Shown in pieces: positions 4,890-42,501 of a DNA stretch of 54,389 nt (the stretch's first letter is position 1; each line of letters opens with the position of its first letter). The position numbers were made by a program, and so were the translations under genes. The notes beneath the pieces are model-generated. The model was not told the origin of the DNA, made no database searches, and saw only the letters and a program-made list of their open reading frames with translations. This DNA comes from an uncultured delta proteobacterium (lineage in GTDB: Bacteria > Myxococcota_A > Polyangia > Haliangiales > Haliangiaceae). Location: assembly GCA_900696455.1 (NCBI GenBank), contig CAADGB010000249.1, forward strand, positions 1 through 54,389, given 5' to 3'.

Positions 4890-5295
4890 GGCTCTCCTCC
4901 CTGTCGAGCACGTCGAGGATGGGACACTCGCTCGTCGGACCGCGCCCGCGGCAACTCTTCACGAGCTTCTCCAGTGCGCCCTTCATGCGTTCGAGGGCGG
5001 CGATCCGCCCTTCGATGTCACCGATCTTGTCCTTCGCGCGCTGGCGAACGTCCGCACAGCTCGAGCTCGGGTCGACCCGCAGCTCGAGCAGATCCTGGAT
5101 CTCCTTCAGGGTGAAGCCGAGATCCTTGGCGTGGCGGATGAATCGAACCCGGCGCACCGTCTCTGCGGGGTACTGGCGGTAGCCCGACGGCCGGCGCGCG
5201 GGCTGGTTGAGGAGCCCCTCGCGCTCGTAGAATCGGATCGTCTCCACGCCGACACCCGCGCTGCGCGCGAGCTGGCCGATCGTCAGGGTCTGCAT
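4876..5295 (-). CDS. merR: MerR-family Hg(II)-responsive regulator
   Basis: A MerR-type activator/repressor of 139 residues from the chosen ATG at 5295, which has GGAGG five bases upstream; an in-frame ATG at 5307 is less well placed. The N-terminal winged helix-turn-helix (TIGQLARSAGVGVETIRFYE) is textbook. Three cysteines lie at residues 80, 115 and 124. Their spacing of 35 and then 9 residues is exactly that of the Hg-binding cysteines C82, C117 and C126 of Tn501 MerR, which argues for true Hg(II) sensing rather than copper or redox sensing. It is the first gene of its own operon. Confidence 0.85.
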   Translation of the reverse strand: MQTLTIGQLARSAGVGVETIRFYEREGLLNQPARRPSGYRQYPAETVRRVRFIRHAKDLGFTLKEIQDLLELRVDPSSSCADVRQRAKDKIGDIEGRIAALERMKGALEKLVKSCRGRGPTSECPILDVLDREESHAER

Positions 5296-5318
5296 CACGA
5301 CCTCCATCGTCAGGAGGA

Positions 5319-5350
5319 AGTATGCGGTCCGTACCCTACTACGGAGTCAA
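5319..5350 (-). promoter_or_regulatory. mer promoter/operator
   Basis: On the minus strand, TTGACT (5350-5345) is followed by the dyad CCGTA-N6-TACGG (5344-5329) and a -10-like CATACT near 5324-5319. The spacer is about 19-20 bp, the over-long spacing typical of MerR-controlled promoters. The dyad closely resembles the classical mer operator. It drives merR-merC-thioredoxin leftwards, so merR is autoregulated within the operon instead of being divergent as in Tn501. Confidence 0.75.
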
Positions 5351-5381
5351 GGGTTGAATCGTCCGGGCGGGGACCGGGCCG

Positions 5382-6719
5382 TCAGTGCAGGTCCGTCGAC
5401 ACCCCGAGCTCGCTGATCCCCAGCTCCCAGTGGTCGAAGGTCGGCGGCGGGCCGGGCTCGATGAGGTCGACGAAGTGGGTGTGGGCTGGCTTGAGATAGT
5501 CGACGATCGCGCGGATCTGGCGGCGCTCGGTCGGCGACAGCGGGACGTCCACCTCGACGTTGAAGGCGTAGCGGGCGAAGCGGTCGGAGGGGCCGAGCTC
5601 CCAGTCGACGCCGAGCTCCGACTCGCCGAGCACGAGCGTGGTGCCCGCGAACGGCGTGACGGCCGTGACGTCGATGCCGAGGAAGAAGCGGATCGCGTTC
5701 TCGATCCCGGCCGACGTCCCCTTCTGCCGGTACATCTCGACGAGGACGGAGGCGAGCCGGCGCTTGCCGAGCTCGTCGAGCTCGAAGGGGAACGGGTTGC
5801 CGAGGTCCTCGAGGATGAGGTCCAGGAACGCCTCGGGCGCGCGCTCGAGGTCGAACACGTCCGCGAAGCGGTCGCACTCGGCGAGGAGCAGGTCGGCCAC
5901 GTCCTGGAGGCACGCGATGAAGCGCCGGAGGTCGCCCGTCACGTCGGCGCGGCGGTTGTGCCGCGGGAGCATGGCCCAGAGGTCGAAGCGCCTCCCCGCG
6001 GGGCGCGGCGGGCGGAAGCCGGCAAAGACGGCGCGGTCGTCCGGCGGCAGCACCGGGTTGCCGAAGACGTCGGCAACGCCCGTGACCTGGACATCGTAGA
6101 GGACATCCGGCGTCATCTCGACGTCGAGCGCGACGCCGACCACGGCGCCCTGAGCATCCGCTGACAGCGGCAGCAGAGGGACCGCGGGGAAGCCGAGCGG
6201 AGCGAACGTGAAGCCCTCCGGATCCGTGACGACGACCTCCTCGTCGAAGCCGATCTGGACGTACCGCGGGCTCTTGGCCTGCGCAGCGACGACCCGCGGC
6301 GCGGTTCGGTCCTCGGCCCTGAACGTGTACGTCTCGTCGAGGGCATGGGCGCCGCCCGCCGTCGCCGAAACGACGCGCACCTCGACGATCGCTTCGCTCG
6401 CGAACGGGACGAGCGGATCGAGGACGACGCGCAGCGTGTCGGCGGTCTCCAACACGGCGGCCCGGGGCCCGTCGAACCCGGGCTGGTGCTCCGGGACGCC
6501 CCCGCCGTCGAAGGCGAGCGCGCCGTCCACCCAGACCCGCGTCGCGGCGCGATCGATCCCGTCCGAGCCGGGATCGAGGACATCGAGCGCGATCGGCCAC
6601 TCGAGCGGCACGCCGGTCTCGCCCGGGCCCGGATCGCGGTTGACGAGCAGCGGGCGCTCGACGGCCACGATGGCGGCGACGTTGTCGGCGTACAGCCCGG
6701 GGAGCTCGACGGCGGGCAT
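5382..6719 (-). CDS. tail protein I-like baseplate protein
   Basis: A 445-residue protein. The N-terminal 230 residues are beta-rich and Ig-like, with D-P-x-P-G-x-x-x-V-P type segments. The C-terminal part matches the phage tail protein I type: L-P-R-H-N-R-R, then R-R-F-I-A-C-L-Q-D, then [17 protein letters not shown], then [20 protein letters not shown]. These proteins sit in the baseplate next to gpJ and connect to the fibres. It follows gpJ with three small genes between, as expected in P2-like and contractile-injection systems. The mercury cargo lies directly downstream. Confidence 0.8.
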
Positions 6720-17603: not shown

Positions 17604-18593
17604 CTACGCCGGCTCGTCGTCGCCGGCGGGAACCCCGAGGCGTTTCTTGACGTTCAGCGCCTTCCACTTGAGGCCGGGGTGGTCCCGGACGATCGCCTGC
17701 GTGACAGGGTCGTCGGTGAGAAGCTCTGGGACGATCTCGCCGGCGCCGTTCAGGCGTTCGATGAAGTCGAGCTCGTGGGCTTCGAGGGGAAGGACGCTGG
17801 CCATGAGGTCACGGGTCTCCTCGATCAGCGTCGCGGCCCATCCCTCGATTTCAGCCTTCGCAGGCCGCACGTCATGGCGCAGCATCGGCACGAGCTGCGA
17901 GTCGACGTCGCGAGCGGTGGTGTGAACCTGATCGACGGTGATCTCGCGCCAGTCGACCCGGTTCAGGCCGCCGTAGACGACGAACCCGAGGCGCAACTTG
18001 GCTCGGTCCAGGTTCGGTCGGCGGAGGATCTCGCGGGCATCAAAGACGTCGCGGCTCGCGCTACGGGCCACCAGGGCTGCCAGCTTCCCCGCGGCGAGCT
18101 CGTGATCCTCCACGATCAAGACCTGGGTGGCCTTCTCGCCGCCGATCGGGTGGGAGTCTCTCGGCGTGGCGGGCCACAAGGGCGTCCGCAACATGAAGTT
18201 GACGTCGACCTCGATGGTGCCCGGCCGGCCGCTGGCCGACGCATAGGTCAACCGCCACTTTCCGCCCGCGTGCTCGGTCGGCGTGCGCTTGACGGTGAGG
18301 CCCATCCGACCGGCGACCTGCTGGAGCGCCTGCTCGACACGAGGGCGCTCGGCGAGCATGGTCTCGCGATCCGCCGCGCCGATGTAGTTCAGGTCGATGT
18401 CGACCGACAGCCGGGGCAAGCCCAGGACGAAGAGGTTCAGGGCCGTTCCGCCCTTGAGCGCCATCCGCGACCCCAGAAACGGGTGCGTGCGAACCGCCTC
18501 GAGCAAGCGCACGAGCACGTAGACCTTCTCGTAGGACTCGACCTGGAAGCCGCTCTCCGCAGCCGCCTGCTGGAGCTGTTGTCGCGTCAGCAT
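17604..18593 (-). CDS. abiEii: AbiEii-type nucleotidyltransferase toxin
   Basis: A 329-residue type IV toxin of the AbiEii/MenT nucleotidyltransferase family. The catalytic signature is K-G-G-T-A-L-N-L at 47-54 followed by R-L-S-V-D-I-D-L, with D65/D67 as the metal pair. A later [18 protein letters not shown] segment is the family's second motif. Such enzymes transfer nucleotides to targets such as tRNA and cause growth arrest or abortive infection. It is coupled to its antitoxin by a TGATG overlap. All key residues are present, so it is probably active. Confidence 0.9.
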
Positions 18594-19405
18594 CAGGTCA
18601 CCTCTGCCCAGGACCGGTTGAGCACGCGCTCTGGTACCACGAGGTTCCAGGGCTTCACGAGCCGTCCCGGCTCACGCTTGCGATCGAGGTACTGGGGCTG
18701 TCGTGGCGCGAGCTCGCGGAGAGCTGTCAGGTGCTGTTCTTCAACGAAGAGCCGCTCGCGATGCTGCTCCAGGAAGAAGCCCACCCGGGCCGCCGTGGTC
18801 GCCGAGCGCCGCTTGACGGCGTGTTCCACGACCGCATCGAGGTCGAAGTACTCCACCATCTCGAGCGATCGCCAGACCTCCTCCCATCCGCCGCCGAGGT
18901 GGGGCGAATCCAGAACGTCGACCAGGGTACGCTCGAACGTCGTCACGCGGACGGTCCCGCCGGCGTGCGGCTCCGAGGTGATGCCGCCGCCGAGATCTGG
19001 AAGCCCTTTGAGGGCGCGCGGCGGCCGGACCGCCACGAACTCGCTCCCCTGGAAGGTCAGCGGACGCACGTGGCTGCGAGTGAGGACGGTGAAGCGGTGC
19101 CACACCGAGTACGTCTTGCCCCGGAACTGCAGCGCGGCGTGGTAGGCGACGGCCGCATCGGGGGCGAGCTTGGTCGCCAGCAGGAACGGATCCACCTGGA
19201 ACGTGTCCGGCGTCGCGCCGGCCGGTACGGACGCGTACAGCCCCCGGCGGACGCGTAGGATCCTTCCGGCGGCGGCATGGCGGGTGAGCAGGCTGTCGGC
19301 CGTCCGAGGGCTCCGGTCCCCACGCCCTCCGCGTGCCGCGAGGTACTCCTCGTGCGTGAACACGGGGTGGGTGGCGAAGAACTCGGCGGATCGCATGGTT
19401 GCCAT
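18593..19405 (-). CDS. abiEi: AbiEi-type antitoxin/regulator
   Basis: A 270-residue AbiEi antitoxin. The N-terminus is a winged helix ([11 protein letters not shown], then [16 protein letters not shown] at about 41-56). The middle is the AbiEi antitoxin domain ([32 protein letters not shown]). AbiEi proteins repress their own promoter. The repeat TACGCG at 19416 and 19431, the latter inside the palindrome TACGCGTA, lies just upstream and could be the operator. ATG 19405 or 19396 may be the start. Confidence 0.88.
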
Positions 19406-27676: not shown

Positions 27677-28615
<939 letters not shown>

Positions 28616-28644
28616 CGCGTTCTGCTCCTTGTCCCCGCGGGGGC

Positions 28645-29508
28645 TCACACGTCGTGGAAGGAGGTCGCCTTGTCGACGCTCTCCCGGTCGAAGGGTCGGT
28701 TGAGGTCGAGGGGCCAGCCGATGTCCTCGTCGTCGGGCCTGGCGGGCCGCTCGCCGGACGGCGCGCTGTTGGGCAGGCCGAAGCGCTTCTCGATGCGACC
28801 GAGCCGCTGCTGCTGCTCCTTGACCGTCTCGGTCAGGGTGCGGAGCGCGGTGGCGAGGGCCTCGAGCTGGCCCGCGACCTTGTCGTCTCCGGCGCTGTCC
28901 GCGCCGGTGCCGCCCGCGCTGTTGTCCTGGCCGCTCCGGGTCGCTCCGTCGCCGGCCTTGCCCGCGGCGTCGAGCACCGCGGAGACCCGCTCGAGCGTGG
29001 CGCGGACCGAGGCGACCGCGGCGGCGAGCGGCTCGCCCTCCCCGGCGGCCGGCGTTCCGTCCAGCCCGGGCGCGCCCGTCGCCCCACCGTCCTCGGGCTT
29101 CGCGCCGGCCAGGCCGGCGAGCCGATCCGAGACGCTCTTCAGCTCGCCCGCGAGCTCGGCGAGGCGCGGCTTGGCGCCCTCGTCGCCCGCCGTCCCGAGG
29201 AGCTCGACCGCCTCGGTCAGCCCCTCGAGCGCGGCCAGCGCCGAACCGAGGGGGCTCTCGGCGCCGGCGGACTCGGCCGCCTCGCCCGAGCTCTCTTCCT
29301 CTTCGACTTCGGCCGCGAGGTCCTGAACCTCCTCGGTCGCGTCCGCGGCGGTCGCCGCATCGTCGGTCGTGGTTGCGTCCATGTCGTTGCTCCTCTTCAC
29401 GATGAGAAAGCGGTGCTTGTTGGCGGCGCGGTCGACGAGCGAGACCTCCTCGACCACGATGTCGATGAGCCGGTTCACGCCGTGCTCGGCCTTGGCGCGC
29501 ACGCTCAT
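28645..29508 (-). CDS. capsid scaffold-like protein
   Basis: 287 residues from ATG 29508 (ATGA overlap with the protease stop). The start [20 protein letters not shown] is a motif usually found in prohead protease proteins. The rest is an Ala/Glu/Asp/Gly-rich, low-complexity chain, with a coiled coil at about 220-250 ([22 protein letters not shown]). It is expected to act as an internal scaffold removed by the upstream protease before DNA packaging. Confidence 0.75.
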
Positions 29509-32500
29509 GCGGCCCTCCGCTGCTCGACGCCGGCGTTCGCGTCGGTCTCGTGCTCGGGCACGCGGCGCGCGGATCCGCCGATGGAGAAGCCGGTGAGCCC
29601 GCCGTCCTTCACCTGCGCCCACAGCTCGTCCGACAGGATCCGCACGGCGAGCAGCCAGGTGCCCTTGCGCACCTTCACGTCGCCGAAGGTGACGTCCGCC
29701 GGGGCCAGGTAGCTCTCCAGCACCTTGACCTCACCGTTCACGCGGAAGCGGTGCATGAGGCCCAGCCCGCCGAACTCCTCCATGAAGCGGTGGGCCGCCT
29801 GCCGGATCTCCTCGGGCGAGTAGATGTCGCCCTGCGCATCCACCGCCTCGGGCTCGAGCACCACGCCGAGCACGTAGCGCTCGTCGTCGGGATCGACGCC
29901 CTTGATGAGCGGGATGGACTTGGCGAACGGCGCGCCGGCCCGCTTGCGTTCCGCCTCCTGCGCCTCCGCGAGCAGCCGCCGCGCCCGGTCCTGCAGCTCG
30001 CGCAGGTCGCGAGCCGTGAGGCTGGGGATCTTCGCCTGCGGGATGCGAGCGATGGCGTTCCGCAGGTGCGGGAGGTCCAGCTCGCCCTTGTCGTCGCGGA
30101 CGGGGAAGTGCCGCAGGCTCCGCGGCACCGTCTTGCCCTCGTCGTCCTTGCGCCCGCCGGGCTCGATGTAGAGGAAGGCGTCGTCGGGCAGGTCGTTGAT
30201 GAACGCCCCCGACCACTCGGCCTTGTCGGTCGCGTCAGGCTCGTCGAGGACCTCCACCCCGTCTGCCTTGGCGACCTTGAAGTTGGCGCAGAAGAGGCGC
30301 GAGGCCTTCTTGGCGCCTCCGGTGCCGGAGGCCTCGTGGACCTTGAGCCGGAAGACGTGGCCGACCGACTTGAACGCGGCCACGTTCTCGGGGCTGTCGT
30401 TCAGGACCGCGATAAAGCGGCCCTTGATCGACCGGAGCGCGTCGGCGAACTCGCCGAGATCGATGACCGCGTCCTTGTCGTACCACTCGCCCGGGTAGGG
30501 CGGGTCGAGGAAGAAGAACGTCTTCGGCCCGTCGAGCTGCGCGATCGTCTTCCGGTAGTCCTGGTGCAGGATCGAGACGTCCTTCAGCCGCTCGGCCGCG
30601 CGCAGGTACTTCTCCGGGTTCGTCGTGCTGCCCAGGTGGTTCTTAGCCGGGTGCGTTCCGTCGGGCCGGCAGTCGCGCGCGTGGGTGCGGACGAAGACGA
30701 GCTTGTAGAAGCGCTCGACCTCGTCCTTCGGCTCCATGTCGCGCGCCTTGGCGAAGCTCTGCTCGGTGCACTTCCACTCGAAGCGCCGCCCGAGCTCCCC
30801 GACGCGCTCGGCGGTCATCGCCTTGATGAACCGGTGCAGGAAGACGACGTCGGCGTCGTTGTCCGCGAGGACCTCCTTAGCGGACGGCTCCTTGGCGTAG
30901 AGCAACGCCGCCGCGCCGGCGAAGGGCTCGGCGTAAATCTCGTGCTCGGGGATGAGCGGCACGATCCGCTTCGCGTAGTGGTGCGAGCCGCCGAACGTGC
31001 CGAAGGCCTGGGCCTTCTCGATCTCGCCGTCCAGGACCGGGCCGCTGCGATCGTCGAGCTCGAGCTGGCCGTCCCACGCCTCGAGGAGCGCCTCCTCGCC
31101 GGCCTCCGTCTTGTCGACGAGGTCGTAGTTGGCGACCAGGAGCTGGGTGAGCAGCGTCGGGCCGCCCACGCCGCGCATCGAGCCGATGCTCCGCGGCGTC
31201 CGGATCCGCTTGATGGTGAAGCCCGCGTCCTTGAGCAGCGCCGGGAGCTTCCCCCGCACGCCGTAGGTCAGGAGGAACTTGCCCTTGAGCGACCGGAGCA
31301 CGCCGACGAAGCGCTCCTCGTCGAAGTCGCCCTCGCCGACGTCCACGTTGTAGCCGGCGTAGGGCGGGGCGAGGTAGAAGACCGTGTCCGCGCCGTCGTA
31401 CTTCCGGACGACCTTCTCGTAGTCGCCCCCGTAGATGCGGACGTTCTGCAGGCGCGGCGCGAACGCCTCGATGCGCTCGGCGGTCCTGGCCTCGATGCCC
31501 TGCGTCGACGGGCTGAAGCTCTTGCCGCGCATCTTCCCGTAGGAGAAGTGGGTCAAGTAGAGGAAGCGGTGCAGCCGCTCGACGTCGTCCTTCGGGCTCG
31601 CGTCGATGAGCCGCTTGAACGTCGCCTGGTCGCCGGTCCACGGCATCCGCCGGAGCTGCTCGATCTGCTTGCGCGTCAGCCGCTTGATGGTCCGGTACGC
31701 CTGGGCGATGTCGGGATCGGCGTCGTTGATCACCTCGGTGTCGGCCGGCTCCTTGGCGAACAGGACTGCGGCGCTGCCCGCGAAGGGCTCGACGTAGGTC
31801 TTGTGGGGAGGCAGGAGCGCCACGAGGCGCGTCGCCAGCTTCTTCTTGCCCGCCGGCGAGCCCCAGATCGTCTTCGAGACCGCGACCTGGAAGCGGCGGA
31901 CCTTGTCCGGGTCGTAGTTGGTCGCGACGAGCGTGACGCCCATGTGAAGGCCCCGGCCGCCCTGCGAGGTGCCGACGCCCGAGGTGTGCCGCCAGCGGCG
32001 GACGTGGAAGCCCTTGAAGAGGTCCGCGTCACCGCGCAGCCCGTAGGTGCAAAGGAACCGGCCGCGGATCTTCCGCAGCACCTTGGCGAAGCGCGCCTCG
32101 TCCCAGTCCTTGTGGCCGGCCCCGACGCGGCAGTCGGCGTCGTAGCCGGCGTAGGGCGGATCGAGGAAGAAGAAGGTGTCGGGCCCGTCGTACTCCTCGA
32201 TGACCTTCTCGTAGTCGGCACAGCGGACGCGCACGGCCTCGAGGCGCGGCGCCCAGCGCTCGAGCTTGTCGACGAAGCGCGCCTCGACGCCGACGTTTCG
32301 GTCAGGCATCGTCCCGCGCCGGAGCTTGTTGAACGAGAAGCGGATGAGGTAGGCGAAGCGGTAGAAGCGGTCGACCTCGTCGTCCGGGGGCTCCGACTCG
32401 TAGAGCTTGCGGAAGTGGGCCTTGTCCCCGACCCACTTCTTGCGGCGCAGCCGATCGAGCTGCTCGGCCGTCAGGTTCTTGGCGAACCGGAAGGCGAACG

Positions 32501-32744
32501 CGATCTCGGGATCCAGGTCTCCGACCACCTCGACCTCGGAGGGCTCCTTGGCGAACAGCACCTGCGCCCCGCCCGCGAACGGCTCGACGTAGACGCGGTG
32601 CTCGGGGATCTCGGCGACGATGCGCTGGGCGAGGTGCGTCTTGCCCGCGGGCGAGCCCCAGATCCGCTTCGCCGTCCGCTCCGGGACGAGGCTGTCCAGG
32701 ACCGCCCGCGCCCGGGCGAGCGCCATGGTGACGCGATCAGCCAC
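29505..32744 (-). CDS. triple Dam-like methyltransferase fused to XkdF-type prohead protease
   Basis: A 1079-residue multidomain protein starting at GTG 32744 (GGAGG six bases upstream). Three successive DNA adenine methyltransferase modules lie at about 28-285, 292-545 and 583-825. Each has an F-A-G motif ([39 protein letters not shown]). Motif IV is DPPY at 195-198 and 747-750, but APPY at 459-462 in the middle module, so that one should be inactive. After a linker domain at about 840-930, residues 940-1064 resemble the XkdF serine protease (H998 in L-M-H-R-F, S1054 in G-F-S-I-G-G). It lies just before scaffold and capsid genes. Whether the protein self-cleaves is unknown. Confidence 0.85.
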
Positions 32745-33048
32745 CGGCGACCTCCGCAGGGTCCGCGCCCCACTCGGCAGCGTCGCGTGCCTCCGCGGTG
32801 TTCAGATCCCGCGGCCAGACGACAGGCGAGGCCTTGGCGACGCCGCCTGGGTGCCCGCCGCCCCCGCGCGCGAGCTCCGAGATCAGCTCCGTGAGCTTGC
32901 CGACCTCCCCGCGCAGCTCGTCGACAGCCTTGGGGTCGCGCTCCGTCTTGATGCGACGGTGCAGCTCGGCCACTCGGGCGCGGATCGCCTTCAGCCGCCC
33001 GGCGGCGGTCTCGGCTCGGCTGTCGGTCGTCGCGGAGTCCTGGGCCAC
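32737..33048 (-). CDS. hypothetical helical protein (103 aa)
   Basis: Starts at GTG 33048, with GGAGG seven bases upstream inside element D. The first 65 residues are a charged coiled coil (LKAIRARVAELHRRIKTERD and on), followed by a Gly-rich hinge and an acidic tail. It is the first gene after element D and is overlapped by the methyltransferase-protease gene. It may be a small assembly or scaffold helper. Confidence 0.6.
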   Translation of the reverse strand: MAQDSATTDSRAETAAGRLKAIRARVAELHRRIKTERDPKAVDELRGEVGKLTELISELARGGGGHPGGVAKASPVVWPRDLNTAEARDAAEWGADPAEVAGG

Positions 33049-33118: not shown

Positions 33119-33457
33119 CTACCAGCCCCGCGGCGCGAGATAGAAGCCGCGGACCGCCTCGTCGGTCGCGAGCCCGGGACCACCCACGGCAGCCCGCACC
33201 CGATCGGCGTAGAGCTTCGCGGTGAGAGGCCGAAGGGTGAACCGGCGGCCCCGGTCGTCCTCGAACTCGAACCGATCGAGCTCATCGACCAGGACGCGCT
33301 GCAGGGGGAAGGCGCGCCGGTGGTCGCCGTCGTCCCAGGCGACGGTCTCGCCCTTCCCACCTTCGTCCGCGACGCGCTCGGATCGGATCGCCAGGAGCAC
33401 GTGGGCTTCGGCGGGCCCCTCCGCGAGACACACCTCGTGGCGCATCCAGTCGAACAT
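33119..33457 (-). CDS. small protein after the MuF toxin-like gene; candidate immunity protein
   Basis: 112 residues from ATG 33457, which overlaps the stop of the MuF gene (TGATG). It starts M-F-D-W-M-R-H-E-V and is beta-rich and acidic, with V-A-W-D-D-G-D-H-R-R-A-F-P-L and R-F-T-L-R-P-L-T segments. No domain is recognised. A short acidic gene translationally coupled to a protein with a C-terminal toxin-like domain is the usual arrangement for an immunity protein. That role is inferred from position only. Confidence 0.5.
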   Translation of the reverse strand: MFDWMRHEVCLAEGPAEAHVLLAIRSERVADEGGKGETVAWDDGDHRRAFPLQRVLVDELDRFEFEDDRGRRFTLRPLTAKLYADRVRAAVGGPGLATDEAVRGFYLAPRGW

Positions 33458-35850
33458 CAGAAGACCTCCCGGCTCATCACGAACTCCTCGATGGGGCGAC
33501 CGTTGACCTTCGTGATGCCCGCATCGCGGAGCTGCCGTAGGACACGCCCGCGCGCCGCGGCGTCGGGGATGACGACGCCCCGCAGCGCCTCGACCGGGAT
33601 GCCGTGCTGGAAGATCATCTCGTTGCTCGTGGAGAGCCGGCGGAACGTCTCCCGCATCTCCGGGACCAGCCTCCGGTCGGAGAACTGGTTCGGACCCGCG
33701 CGCCCGAAGTTGTCGCGGTTGAAGAAGTACCAGTCGGAGCGGCCGAGCTGGTCGGGATCGATCAGCACGCGCACGCCGCGGGAACCGACGCCGAGATGCC
33801 TCTGTCCCCTGACGACCACCCGGGTGAACACGCCGTCCGCCCCGCCCGTGCCGAAGTCGGTGCCGGTGCTCATGCCGTTGACGAACAGGCCTCGCCCGTA
33901 CCGCTGCGTGGACGCCAAGAGACCCGAGCCGTCCGGGTCGCCGAGGATGTGAACGAGGGCCGCGGGATCGGAGAGGTCGTGAAAGAGGCCTGCCACGCCG
34001 TCCTTGCGCAGTCGCGTCGCCTGCGCCTTGGAGTGGAGGGCCACGTGCCCTCGCGCGGTCTGTACCAGCTTCGTGTCGTCGAGCACCTTCGACATCTCCG
34101 GGAACCGCTTCGTGGCATCGCGGAAGATCGGATCGATGCTCTCCGGCGTCAGCTCCTTCAGCCGCCGGAGCTTCTCCCAACCGGAACGGTCGTACTGGGT
34201 GATGAGCCTCGCCTTGCGAAGAACGTCAACCGCTTCCGCCGAGGGGAAGCTCGTGGCCTCGGCGATGCCCAAGCGCCGCGCGGCCGCACCATAGGCCTTG
34301 AAGGCCTCGCTCGCGTTCGCCGTCGGGATGTCCATCTCGACGAAGTTGGCGAGCGCGCCCCGCTCGGTGACCATCCGCACCCGGACGTTGCCGAAGGAGG
34401 AGCTCACCGCACGGAAGCGAAGGCTGCCCTCCTCGCGCCCCTTCACGATGCGTCCCGTCTTGGGATCCCGGTCGCCCTTGAGGTGGCGGAACGTGTCGTC
34501 GCGGTTGACCCGCTCGCCGCCAAGGATCGCGTCGCGGACCCGCTCGGCGTGCGGCTCGGTGACCTTGAACCGAACCTTGGTGACGTCCTTGCCGTCGATG
34601 CGCTCGGCCCGGAACTGGACATCGAAGTTCTCGACGAACCCGCTGTCGAGCGGCAGCGCCTGGCCCGAAGATGAGGCGAGCGTCTTCGAGCCGGCGAGGA
34701 GCTCCAGCGGCCCGTCCGACCTCCGCTCCGGCTCGGGCACGGCTTCCGCGACGCGAGGCGTGACCACCTGGGCGGACACGTCGGCGACCGTCGTGCTCCG
34801 GCAGAGGCCGTGATACGGCGGGAACGAGACGCCGATCTCCTGCAGCCTCGCGGTCGACAGGCCGGCCGAGTAGCTGCCGCGCTCGTCCCGTGTCCCGATC
34901 CCGGGCCGATCCACGATCGCCACCCGGCGCGTGCTTCCGCCCCGGTCGACGAACATGATCCGCCGCCCCTGTGCGTCCACGCCGTCGCGAACCCAGGGCG
35001 TGAGCTCCTTGGCCGCATCCGGGTTGGCCTCGACCCGCTCGAAGGTGCCGAGGCCGTTCTCCACGGAGAACGTCTTGCCGTCGAGGAAGCGGCAGATCTC
35101 GGTCGTCCGCTCGTCGAGGACGGCCTCGATGATGTAGCGGTCGATGCCCGCCTCGGCGTAGGCCGAGAGCTGCGCGAAGGAGCGGCCGTTGGCGACGAAC
35201 GCGCCGGCCACCGTCTCCCAATAGAAGCTCCCGCGCCCGGCGATGACGTCACGCGCGGCGGCCTCGAGGTCGCGGGCGATGTCCTCCCGGCCGAGCCCCG
35301 CTTCGAGGCCCTGGGCGACGATCTGCCGCGCCCGCTCTCCGAAGGCCTCGTGGCGCCGGCCGTACTCGTCACGCACGTAGTTGGCCTGGCTCGTCGTCAG
35401 GTGCCGGACGATGCGCCGGTCGAGGGCGTTGAAGTCGGCCGCGATCGCGAGCCCCTGGCCGCGCCGTGCTCCGTCGCGGGTGGCCTGGACGACCTCCTTC
35501 GCCGCGTCCCCGAACACGGCGCCCACCGCCCGCGGCACGCCCGCCGTGCTCCGGCCGGCGGCCTGGAGCGCCCGACCGACGAGCGTGCTCCGCTGCGCCG
35601 CCGTGGTGCTGCCCCAGTCGACGTCCAGCACCGCGACCGCTGCCCGCACGGCCGCATCGTCCGAGTCGGCGGCCTTCTTCGACAGGAGGCCGGCGAGCTG
35701 AGCCACCGCGCGGTCGAAGCCCTTGGGGCTACCCAGGTCGAAGGCCTTTTGTAGCCGCACGCGAAGGTAACGCTCGAGGATCTCGTCCGCCGCCTCGCGC
35801 GCCGCGTGGAGCAGGCGCAGCTCGTCAGCGGTACTGCACGCGCCGCACAC
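33457..35850 (-). CDS. MuF/SPP1 gp7-like head protein with C-terminal ADP-ribosyltransferase-like domain
   Basis: 797 residues from a GTG at 35850. Residues 140-355 are the phage minor head (MuF) domain: A-Y-A-E-A-G-I-D-R-Y, then L-D-E-R-T-T-E-I-C-R-F-L-D-G at 246-258 and P-P-Y-H-G-L-C-R-S at 344-352. Residues 400-797 are far longer than a plain MuF protein. The end resembles an ADP-ribosyltransferase fold: G-H-V-A-L-H-S-K near 601-608, S-T-G-T-D-F-G-T-G-G-A-D-G-V-F-T-R at 661-677, and N-E-M-I-F-Q-H-G-I-P with E744 as candidate catalytic glutamate. MuF-toxin fusions are known in temperate phages. The enzyme assignment here is by motif only. Confidence 0.75.
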   Translation of the reverse strand: MCGACSTADELRLLHAAREAADEILERYLRVRLQKAFDLGSPKGFDRAVAQLAGLLSKKAADSDDAAVRAAVAVLDVDWGSTTAAQRSTLVGRALQAAGRSTAGVPRAVGAVFGDAAKEVVQATRDGARRGQGLAIAADFNALDRRIVRHLTTSQANYVRDEYGRRHEAFGERARQIVAQGLEAGLGREDIARDLEAAARDVIAGRGSFYWETVAGAFVANGRSFAQLSAYAEAGIDRYIIEAVLDERTTEICRFLDGKTFSVENGLGTFERVEANPDAAKELTPWVRDGVDAQGRRIMFVDRGGSTRRVAIVDRPGIGTRDERGSYSAGLSTARLQEIGVSFPPYHGLCRSTTVADVSAQVVTPRVAEAVPEPERRSDGPLELLAGSKTLASSSGQALPLDSGFVENFDVQFRAERIDGKDVTKVRFKVTEPHAERVRDAILGGERVNRDDTFRHLKGDRDPKTGRIVKGREEGSLRFRAVSSSFGNVRVRMVTERGALANFVEMDIPTANASEAFKAYGAAARRLGIAEATSFPSAEAVDVLRKARLITQYDRSGWEKLRRLKELTPESIDPIFRDATKRFPEMSKVLDDTKLVQTARGHVALHSKAQATRLRKDGVAGLFHDLSDPAALVHILGDPDGSGLLASTQRYGRGLFVNGMSTGTDFGTGGADGVFTRVVVRGQRHLGVGSRGVRVLIDPDQLGRSDWYFFNRDNFGRAGPNQFSDRRLVPEMRETFRRLSTSNEMIFQHGIPVEALRGVVIPDAAARGRVLRQLRDAGITKVNGRPIEEFVMSREVF

Positions 35851-36377: not shown

Positions 36378-36381
<4 letters not shown>
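36121..36381 (-). CDS. zinc-ribbon protein (86 aa)
   Basis: GTG 36381 overlaps the portal stop (GTGA). C-R-M-C at about 26-29 and C-D-R-C near 51-54 form a treble-clef or ribbon pair; the C-terminus is Arg-rich. Together with the next gene it makes a two-gene zinc-protein pair inside the head module. Function unknown. Confidence 0.7.
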
Positions 36382-38185
<1,804 letters not shown>

Positions 38186-38189
<4 letters not shown>

Positions 38190-40972: not shown

Positions 40973-42406
<1,434 letters not shown>

Positions 42407-42501
42407 GGCGCGCCTCCTGCGCCGACCGCCGATTGCCTTGCCTTTCCGGCGGTTGAACGCCTCCATGGGCTCGCCATCAACGACCGCACGGAGGACCTGC
42501 C

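Follow-up and report, generated by a model that had tools for sequence, protein, structure and literature searches.

Why would a phage join DNA methyltransferases to the protease that matures its head? The question is raised by a single open frame on the minus strand (29505-32744) of contig CAADGB010000249.1, analyzed here over its whole length (the window; 54,389 bases, 71% guanine plus cytosine (GC)) and part of a 7.98-Mb, 554-contig assembly of an uncultured delta proteobacterium. The frame encodes three predicted DNA adenine methyltransferase modules (M1, M2, and M3) followed by an XkdF domain of the prohead protease type. We conclude, with a probability of about 0.55, that a head-maturation protease gene has grown into a head protein of the polyvalent type, whose methyltransferases enter the prohead and protect the phage DNA.

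The frame runs uninterrupted from a GTG start to a TGA stop and encodes 1079 amino acids (P0002). Its GC content by codon position (0.69/0.43/0.97) is the typical coding pattern for DNA of 71% GC. A long frame on the plus strand (29550-32894) was rejected as a gene; it lacks a coding signature and is a shadow of the minus-strand gene. Pfam identified three MethyltransfD12 stretches (PF02086, 7e-53, 180 bits against a curated cut-off of 22) and one C-terminal Peptidase_S78_2 domain (XkdF, PF14550, residues 947-1061, 4e-30, 104.8 bits against a curated cut-off of 24). With approximate boundaries, the chain comprises M1 (residues 27-287, 31884-32666), M2 (288-545, 31110-31883), M3 (588-838, 30231-30983), a linker (839-939, 29928-30230), and the XkdF core (940-1066, 29547-29927), all on the minus strand; Pfam and a tree define the modules, Pfam and alignments the core. 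This is the layout that an earlier reading of the DNA alone (the original prediction) had described, although it named no strand. Because independent assemblies (loci L031 and L032) encode the same layout, there is no join error. The three-module chain is thus confirmed as a real single gene, neither chance nor a mis-join.

The surroundings assign this gene to head morphogenesis. Upstream and on the same strand are the terminase large subunit (40973-42466), the portal protein (36378-38189), and a MuF-type minor head protein (33457-35850). Downstream follow a putative scaffold (28645-29508, minus strand), the major capsid protein (27677-28648, minus strand; PHROG 1623, 3e-102, and PHROG 10), a head-tail adaptor, and a neck protein. 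The start codon of the polyprotein overlaps the stop of a small upstream gene. Its own stop and the scaffold start share an ATGA overlap, and GGAGG precedes the scaffold start. The polyprotein gene therefore occupies the slot of the head maturation protease, the portal-to-major-capsid position expected of an HK97-type (S78) prohead protease gene. The capsid-linked role suggested in the original prediction is plausible in this setting.

Scans of viral contigs and bacterial genomes recovered well over 100 related loci. Methyltransferase modules occur in 83 of the 104 non-redundant XkdF frames with an intact 5' end, mostly as one module (M2) and in many cases as two (M2+M3). One protein combines M1 and M2 (L033), and three carry M1, M2, and M3, namely the window protein, L032 (intact, 81% identity), and L031 (85%, with its 5' end cut by the contig). 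The window protein is the longest form of a large and widespread family. Named hosts are mainly Myxococcota, including cultured Myxococcus, Corallococcus, and Citreicoccus, and the family is found mostly in phages of soil myxobacteria. Cultured strains with the one-module gene are Corallococcus carmarthensis CA043D, Myxococcus xanthus AM003, and Citreicoccus inhibens M34. Seven of 379 sampled genomes of the window's phylum match at 1e-40, among them the window's own, which also holds a second M2-like piece on a separate contig (C506).

The protease slot recurs with the fusion. Among testable loci, methyltransferase-bearing XkdF frames are followed by a major capsid gene in all cases (62/62) and by the scaffold segment in 70 of 78, and are preceded by a portal gene (50/52) and a MuF gene (51/59). 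XkdF is nearly always C-terminal, with a median tail of 15 amino acids. Searches with one- and three-module queries (tblastn) found no annotated phage record covering 80% of either query, and literature searches found no XkdF-methyltransferase fusion on point. The view that no standard protein has this layout therefore stands, among annotated phage records, for three modules. It fails for fusions with one or two modules, which occur commonly in viral contigs and in genomes of myxobacteria, and multidomain phage proteins with an assemblin-like peptidase at the C-terminus have been known since 2017 (PMC5512222).

Several named phages were considered as carriers of the fusion. PAK_P3, RHph_TM16, and the Lactococcus 98201 group proved to encode XkdF without a methyltransferase, and the mox gene of Mx8 was ruled out as a fused gene, being stand-alone. 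In public records, the labels 'DNA methyltransferase' (PAK_P3) and 'DNA methyltransferase/prohead protease' (RHph_TM16) sit on free XkdF proteases (L120 and L118, respectively) and were apparently transferred from fused relatives. A labelling error in several phage records, in which free XkdF proteases are named 'DNA methyltransferase', is thereby corrected. Another locus (L103) has a duplicated protease core, with one XkdF domain in each of two neighboring frames (5140-6045 and 5963-6706).

The methyltransferase modules are old, separate lineages. In a maximum-likelihood tree, M1, M2, and M3 form three supported clades, each keeping its own slot; the M2 lineage is also found in single-module proteins, and motif X reads GGS instead of GK throughout the M3 lineage. 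All three window modules are of the D12 class, and the whole-protein model resembles EcoDam, Mcbe1, DpnM, and T4Dam (template modelling scores by target of 0.65-0.75), consistent with the Dam/DpnM fold. Calling them 'three Dam-like' enzymes hides how far they have diverged, with identities of 48% (M1/M2), 40% (M1/M3), and 33% (M2/M3). Of three regions compared, the middle one shows the sharpest contrast, with 64-84% identity within a slot and 19-39% between slots. We take this region to be the target-recognition part, as in Dam. Of 114 modules, 112 keep the catalytic Asp of motif IV; Ala replaces it in the window M2 and Tyr in the M3 of L085. Ratios of nonsynonymous to synonymous substitution rates (dN/dS) between the window and L031 are low (M1 0.15, M2 0.18, M3 0.18, XkdF 0.15). 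The separate slot lineages, kept Asp, slot-diverged recognition regions, and low dN/dS together suggest that three working enzymes, probably with different targets, are the rule in the three-module form. Their predicted activity is adenine methylation of DNA.

The window itself carries one exception. Motif IV (residues 195, 459, and 747) reads DPPY in M1 (32151-32162), APPY in M2 (GCC CCG CCC TAC, 31359-31370), and DPPY in M3 (30495-30506), all on the minus strand, as had been noticed before. M1 and M3 have motif I and the catalytic DPPY of the D12 class. No relative has APPY, and 78 of 79 M2 modules retain DPPY, including those of both other three-module proteins. The change is confined to the window sequence, as either a recent loss or a wrong base, and the middle enzyme of the window individual is probably inactive. 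Because the loss of Asp is private to this sequence, the proposal that a dead middle module serves as a scaffold or DNA-recognition copy finds no support. A base-calling or assembly error, with all three modules active in the real phage, is possible if doubtful, and would be compatible with methyltransferases carried into the prohead. A single base (GCC at 31368-31370 vs GAC/GAT) sets the window apart from every relative, and the window is a 54-kb contig of an assembly in 554 pieces, but the adjacent substitution of Y for F (FLDPPY to YLAPPY) points to ordinary divergence. The sole other loss of the catalytic Asp that we saw is in L085 (508-2739), where the second module has YPPY.

The XkdF domain has His998 (29751-29753) and Ser1054 (29583-29585, both minus strand) conserved in all 19 aligned domains. 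An AlphaFold model of the domain alone has a mean predicted local distance difference test (pLDDT) score of 69 and collapses at the Ser strand. A Foldseek search with this model gave no significant match, and a profile search of solved structures returned chance matches only. Among the Foldseek candidates, the best structural alignment was to T4 gp21 (5jbl, Z 6.4), followed by an unrelated chain at 4.5 and by herpesvirus proteases at 3.5-3.8. The match to gp21 stops at its residue 139.

What the XkdF chain lacks is encoded next door. The conserved part of HK97-type proteases ends in a strand 'LxEVSLVTFPANxxAxVxxVK'. The XkdF chain does not have this strand; instead, the next gene opens with it, as '[27 protein letters not shown]' in the window and likewise in 82 of 99 loci. 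The segment at the N-terminus of the window scaffold ('[29 protein letters not shown]', 29392-29478, minus strand) is homologous to this last strand, and its Glu21 (29446-29448, minus strand) matches HK97 Glu141. Against an HK97-type profile, the XkdF core alone aligned over 24 columns (40%), whereas the core plus the next-gene segment in natural order aligned colinearly over 62 columns across both parts (80%); with the segment reversed, the alignment again covered 24 columns (60%). All 94 XkdF-scaffold pairs have the His, Ser, and Glu, and these align with His65, Ser114, and Glu141 of HK97 gp4, which are invariant in 13 of 13. An HK97-type S78 protease holds all three residues and the EVSxV strand within one chain; here the Glu strand lies in the next gene. 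One locus (L070) is a natural fusion of XkdF, segment, and scaffold in one chain. The Lactococcus phage 98201 also has one chain, with a VSYVDKAAN segment, XkdF, a long scaffold-like tail, and His at the Glu position.

These alignments suggest that the protease is split between the polyprotein and the scaffold, with His and Ser on one chain and the Glu strand on the other. The Glu would be catalytic and the two parts would assemble. Simple self-release of the protease, as first proposed, does not fit a domain that lacks its last conserved strand and acidic residue; both are encoded by the next gene, and cleavage should therefore need the scaffold product. Literature searches for a split prohead protease found nothing on point.

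Other enzymes share the position ahead of or behind XkdF. An ATP-dependent ligase domain precedes a C-terminal XkdF in eight proteins of 1318-1895 amino acids from viral contigs (L028, L087, L088, L160, L175, L179, L180, and L192). All eight have the ligase lysine motif KxNGxR instead of KxDGxR; five have no detected D12 module, and three (L087, L088, and L180) have one or two. In L188 (2872-6828), a methyltransferase and XkdF are followed by an inorganic pyrophosphatase (PF18823), a rare case of a domain behind XkdF. In L010 (9292-11124), an M3-lineage methyltransferase lies inside the scaffold gene, between the EVSVVD segment and the coiled coil, while the upstream XkdF chain bears a different methyltransferase. 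Methyltransferases are therefore joined to two internal head proteins of different kinds. The recurrent architecture suggests that these phages load DNA-protecting enzymes into their heads.

In the mechanism that we propose, the DNA adenine methyltransferases would be N-terminal cargo on a protease core and would travel with the protease into the prohead. The polyprotein likely enters together with the scaffold. Because the protease is apparently split across the polyprotein and scaffold genes, docking of XkdF on the scaffold would bring the chain into the prohead core and at the same time supply the missing part of the protease. An N-terminal helix (residues 2-19, 32688-32741, minus strand; alignment and structure model) is retained ahead of one-, two-, and three-module proteins, with A12 nearly invariant, and is a candidate head-targeting segment. 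The chain may then be cleaved between its modules, retained, and ejected. The methyltransferases, each with its own recognition region, would methylate phage DNA at several types of sequence, either while heads assemble or once ejected into the next cell, and would so shield it from restriction. We speculate, more tentatively, that this is a two-gene prohead protease active only when docked on the scaffold, and that docking also loads enzyme arrays (one to three methyltransferases, ligase, and pyrophosphatase) in protease-linked numbers for ejection with the genome.

The main rival confines the methyltransferases to the cytoplasm of the producer cell. Late and strong expression, gained by fusion to the protease gene, would lead to methylation of the replicated phage DNA before packaging, the methyltransferase part would be cut off or left outside, and nothing would be ejected. 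Catalytic motifs and purifying selection are equally expected under this explanation, and many phages, Mx8 with its stand-alone mox among them, have free Dam-like genes with no known role in the virion. It leaves unexplained the repeated fusion of XkdF to a DNA-acting enzyme (ligase) and to a pyrophosphatase, the persistence of the enzymes within the XkdF chain, and the methyltransferase-scaffold fusion in L010. We consider it rather unlikely.

Several points nevertheless weigh against entry of the methyltransferases into the prohead, beginning with the fact that all family members are known from sequence alone. Loading, cleavage, retention in the head, and ejection are steps that we infer. 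The structural match of XkdF is of middling strength and its model mediocre (pLDDT 69). At 80%, the profile score for the split protease falls short of decisive, the 94 XkdF-scaffold sequences were all drawn from related searches, and the residue at the Glu position is non-acidic in some XkdF phages (PAK_P3, RHph_TM16, and Lactococcus 98201). The scaffold-M3 fusion is seen in one contig (L010), beside the protease gene, and may have arisen by local rearrangement.

The modules might instead be mainly structural, binding DNA or filling the prohead core, with methylation secondary and the APPY module as an example. M2 of the window lost its Asp with no other decay (dN/dS 0.18), and M3 of L085 has YPPY, but a purely structural role would not need the Asp kept in 112 of 114 modules, and the recognition regions diverge by slot; we judge this improbable. 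That the long frame is an artefact joining separate genes has next to no probability. Only two other three-module proteins were found, but both, from independent assemblies, have the same order, and two-module proteins of M1+M2 (L033) and M2+M3 (many) bracket the three-module form.

The preferred reading, a protease gene grown into a cargo-bearing head protein, extends a known theme by arrays of D12 methyltransferases on an XkdF protease. Iyer et al. described multidomain polyvalent phage proteins with an assemblin-like peptidase at the C-terminus in 2017 (PMC5512222). Like the window protein, these are encoded near portal and terminase genes and have enzymes at the N-terminus and a head-protease domain at the C-terminus, and their domains include adenine methylases and inorganic pyrophosphatase (PMC5512222), as in the XkdF family. 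The window protein, too, combines several enzymatic domains and a C-terminal peptidase in one phage protein. The polyvalent proteins differ in that their methyltransferases are mostly EcoKI/TaqI-like with a helicase (PMC5512222), whereas the window has a tandem of the D12 class and no helicase, and in that the window protease is apparently completed by the next gene. The main text of that study mentions neither XkdF nor DNA ligase.

Among proteases, the XkdF/Peptidase_S78_2 proteins of PBSX, Lactococcus 98201 (gp34), and PAK_P3 (gp3) share the domain, gene position, and invariant His and Ser of the window. Unlike the window protein, 98201 gp34 and PAK_P3 gp3 have no methyltransferase modules. 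In 98201, the VSxVD segment is N-terminal within the XkdF chain and the scaffold-like tail follows XkdF in the same chain. In HK97 gp4 (S78), the His, Ser, and EVSxVxxPAN strand align in the same order as in the window pair, but gp4 is one chain of about 225 amino acids, whereas the window chain splits before the last strand and bears cargo.

A functional precedent is found in phage P1, whose Dar proteins are ejected together with the DNA and protect it against restriction, DarA being cleaved by the prohead protease (PMC12810830; PMC5512222). DarB is a methylase-helicase of about 2,000 amino acids, predicted at about 45 copies (PMC12810830; PMC5512222). The proposed likeness lies in a DNA methylase carried in the head to counter restriction and in cleavage of a head protein by the prohead protease (PMC12810830). 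DarB is not fused to a protease, and the P1 protease Pro is separate. DarB-like proteins join an EcoKI/TaqI-like methyltransferase to a superfamily 2 helicase, and the window has D12 modules with no helicase domain. The T4 core holds about 55 copies of its protease and 40 of the enzyme Alt (PMC9958956). Mox of Mx8 is an adenine methylase of a myxobacterial phage, as is the predicted class of the window modules, but its stand-alone gene lies far from the head cluster.

These proteins physically tie DNA modification to capsid assembly in a large and hardly described phage family, which is testable because members occur in cultured Myxococcus, Corallococcus, and Citreicoccus strains. Should the enzymes be packaged, the fusion would add to the P1 Dar and T4 internal-protein routes a further way of bringing counter-restriction enzymes into the head. 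More surprising, if it is confirmed, is the two-gene protease, of which the literature searched gave no example. It would explain activity restricted to the scaffold-filled prohead, and also offers a way of recognizing further head-cargo genes.

The linker between M3 and XkdF (residues 839-939, '[29 protein letters not shown]') is an optional domain, defined by alignment. This module ('[35 protein letters not shown]', 29928-30230, minus strand) is variably present between methyltransferase and XkdF in close relatives, occurring in L031 and L033 and missing from L032. The MuF-type protein (33457-35850, minus strand) has a long C-terminal extension of about 400 additional residues to which Pfam assigns no domain; it may be a second effector carried in the head. 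A terminal repeat marking a complete phage genome was looked for in the window and not found. Among the phage tail genes is an AbiEii/AbiEi pair (17604-18593 and 18593-19405, both minus strand) with strong PADLOC matches (3e-100 and 3e-96), predicted to be an abortive-infection or type IV toxin-antitoxin system.

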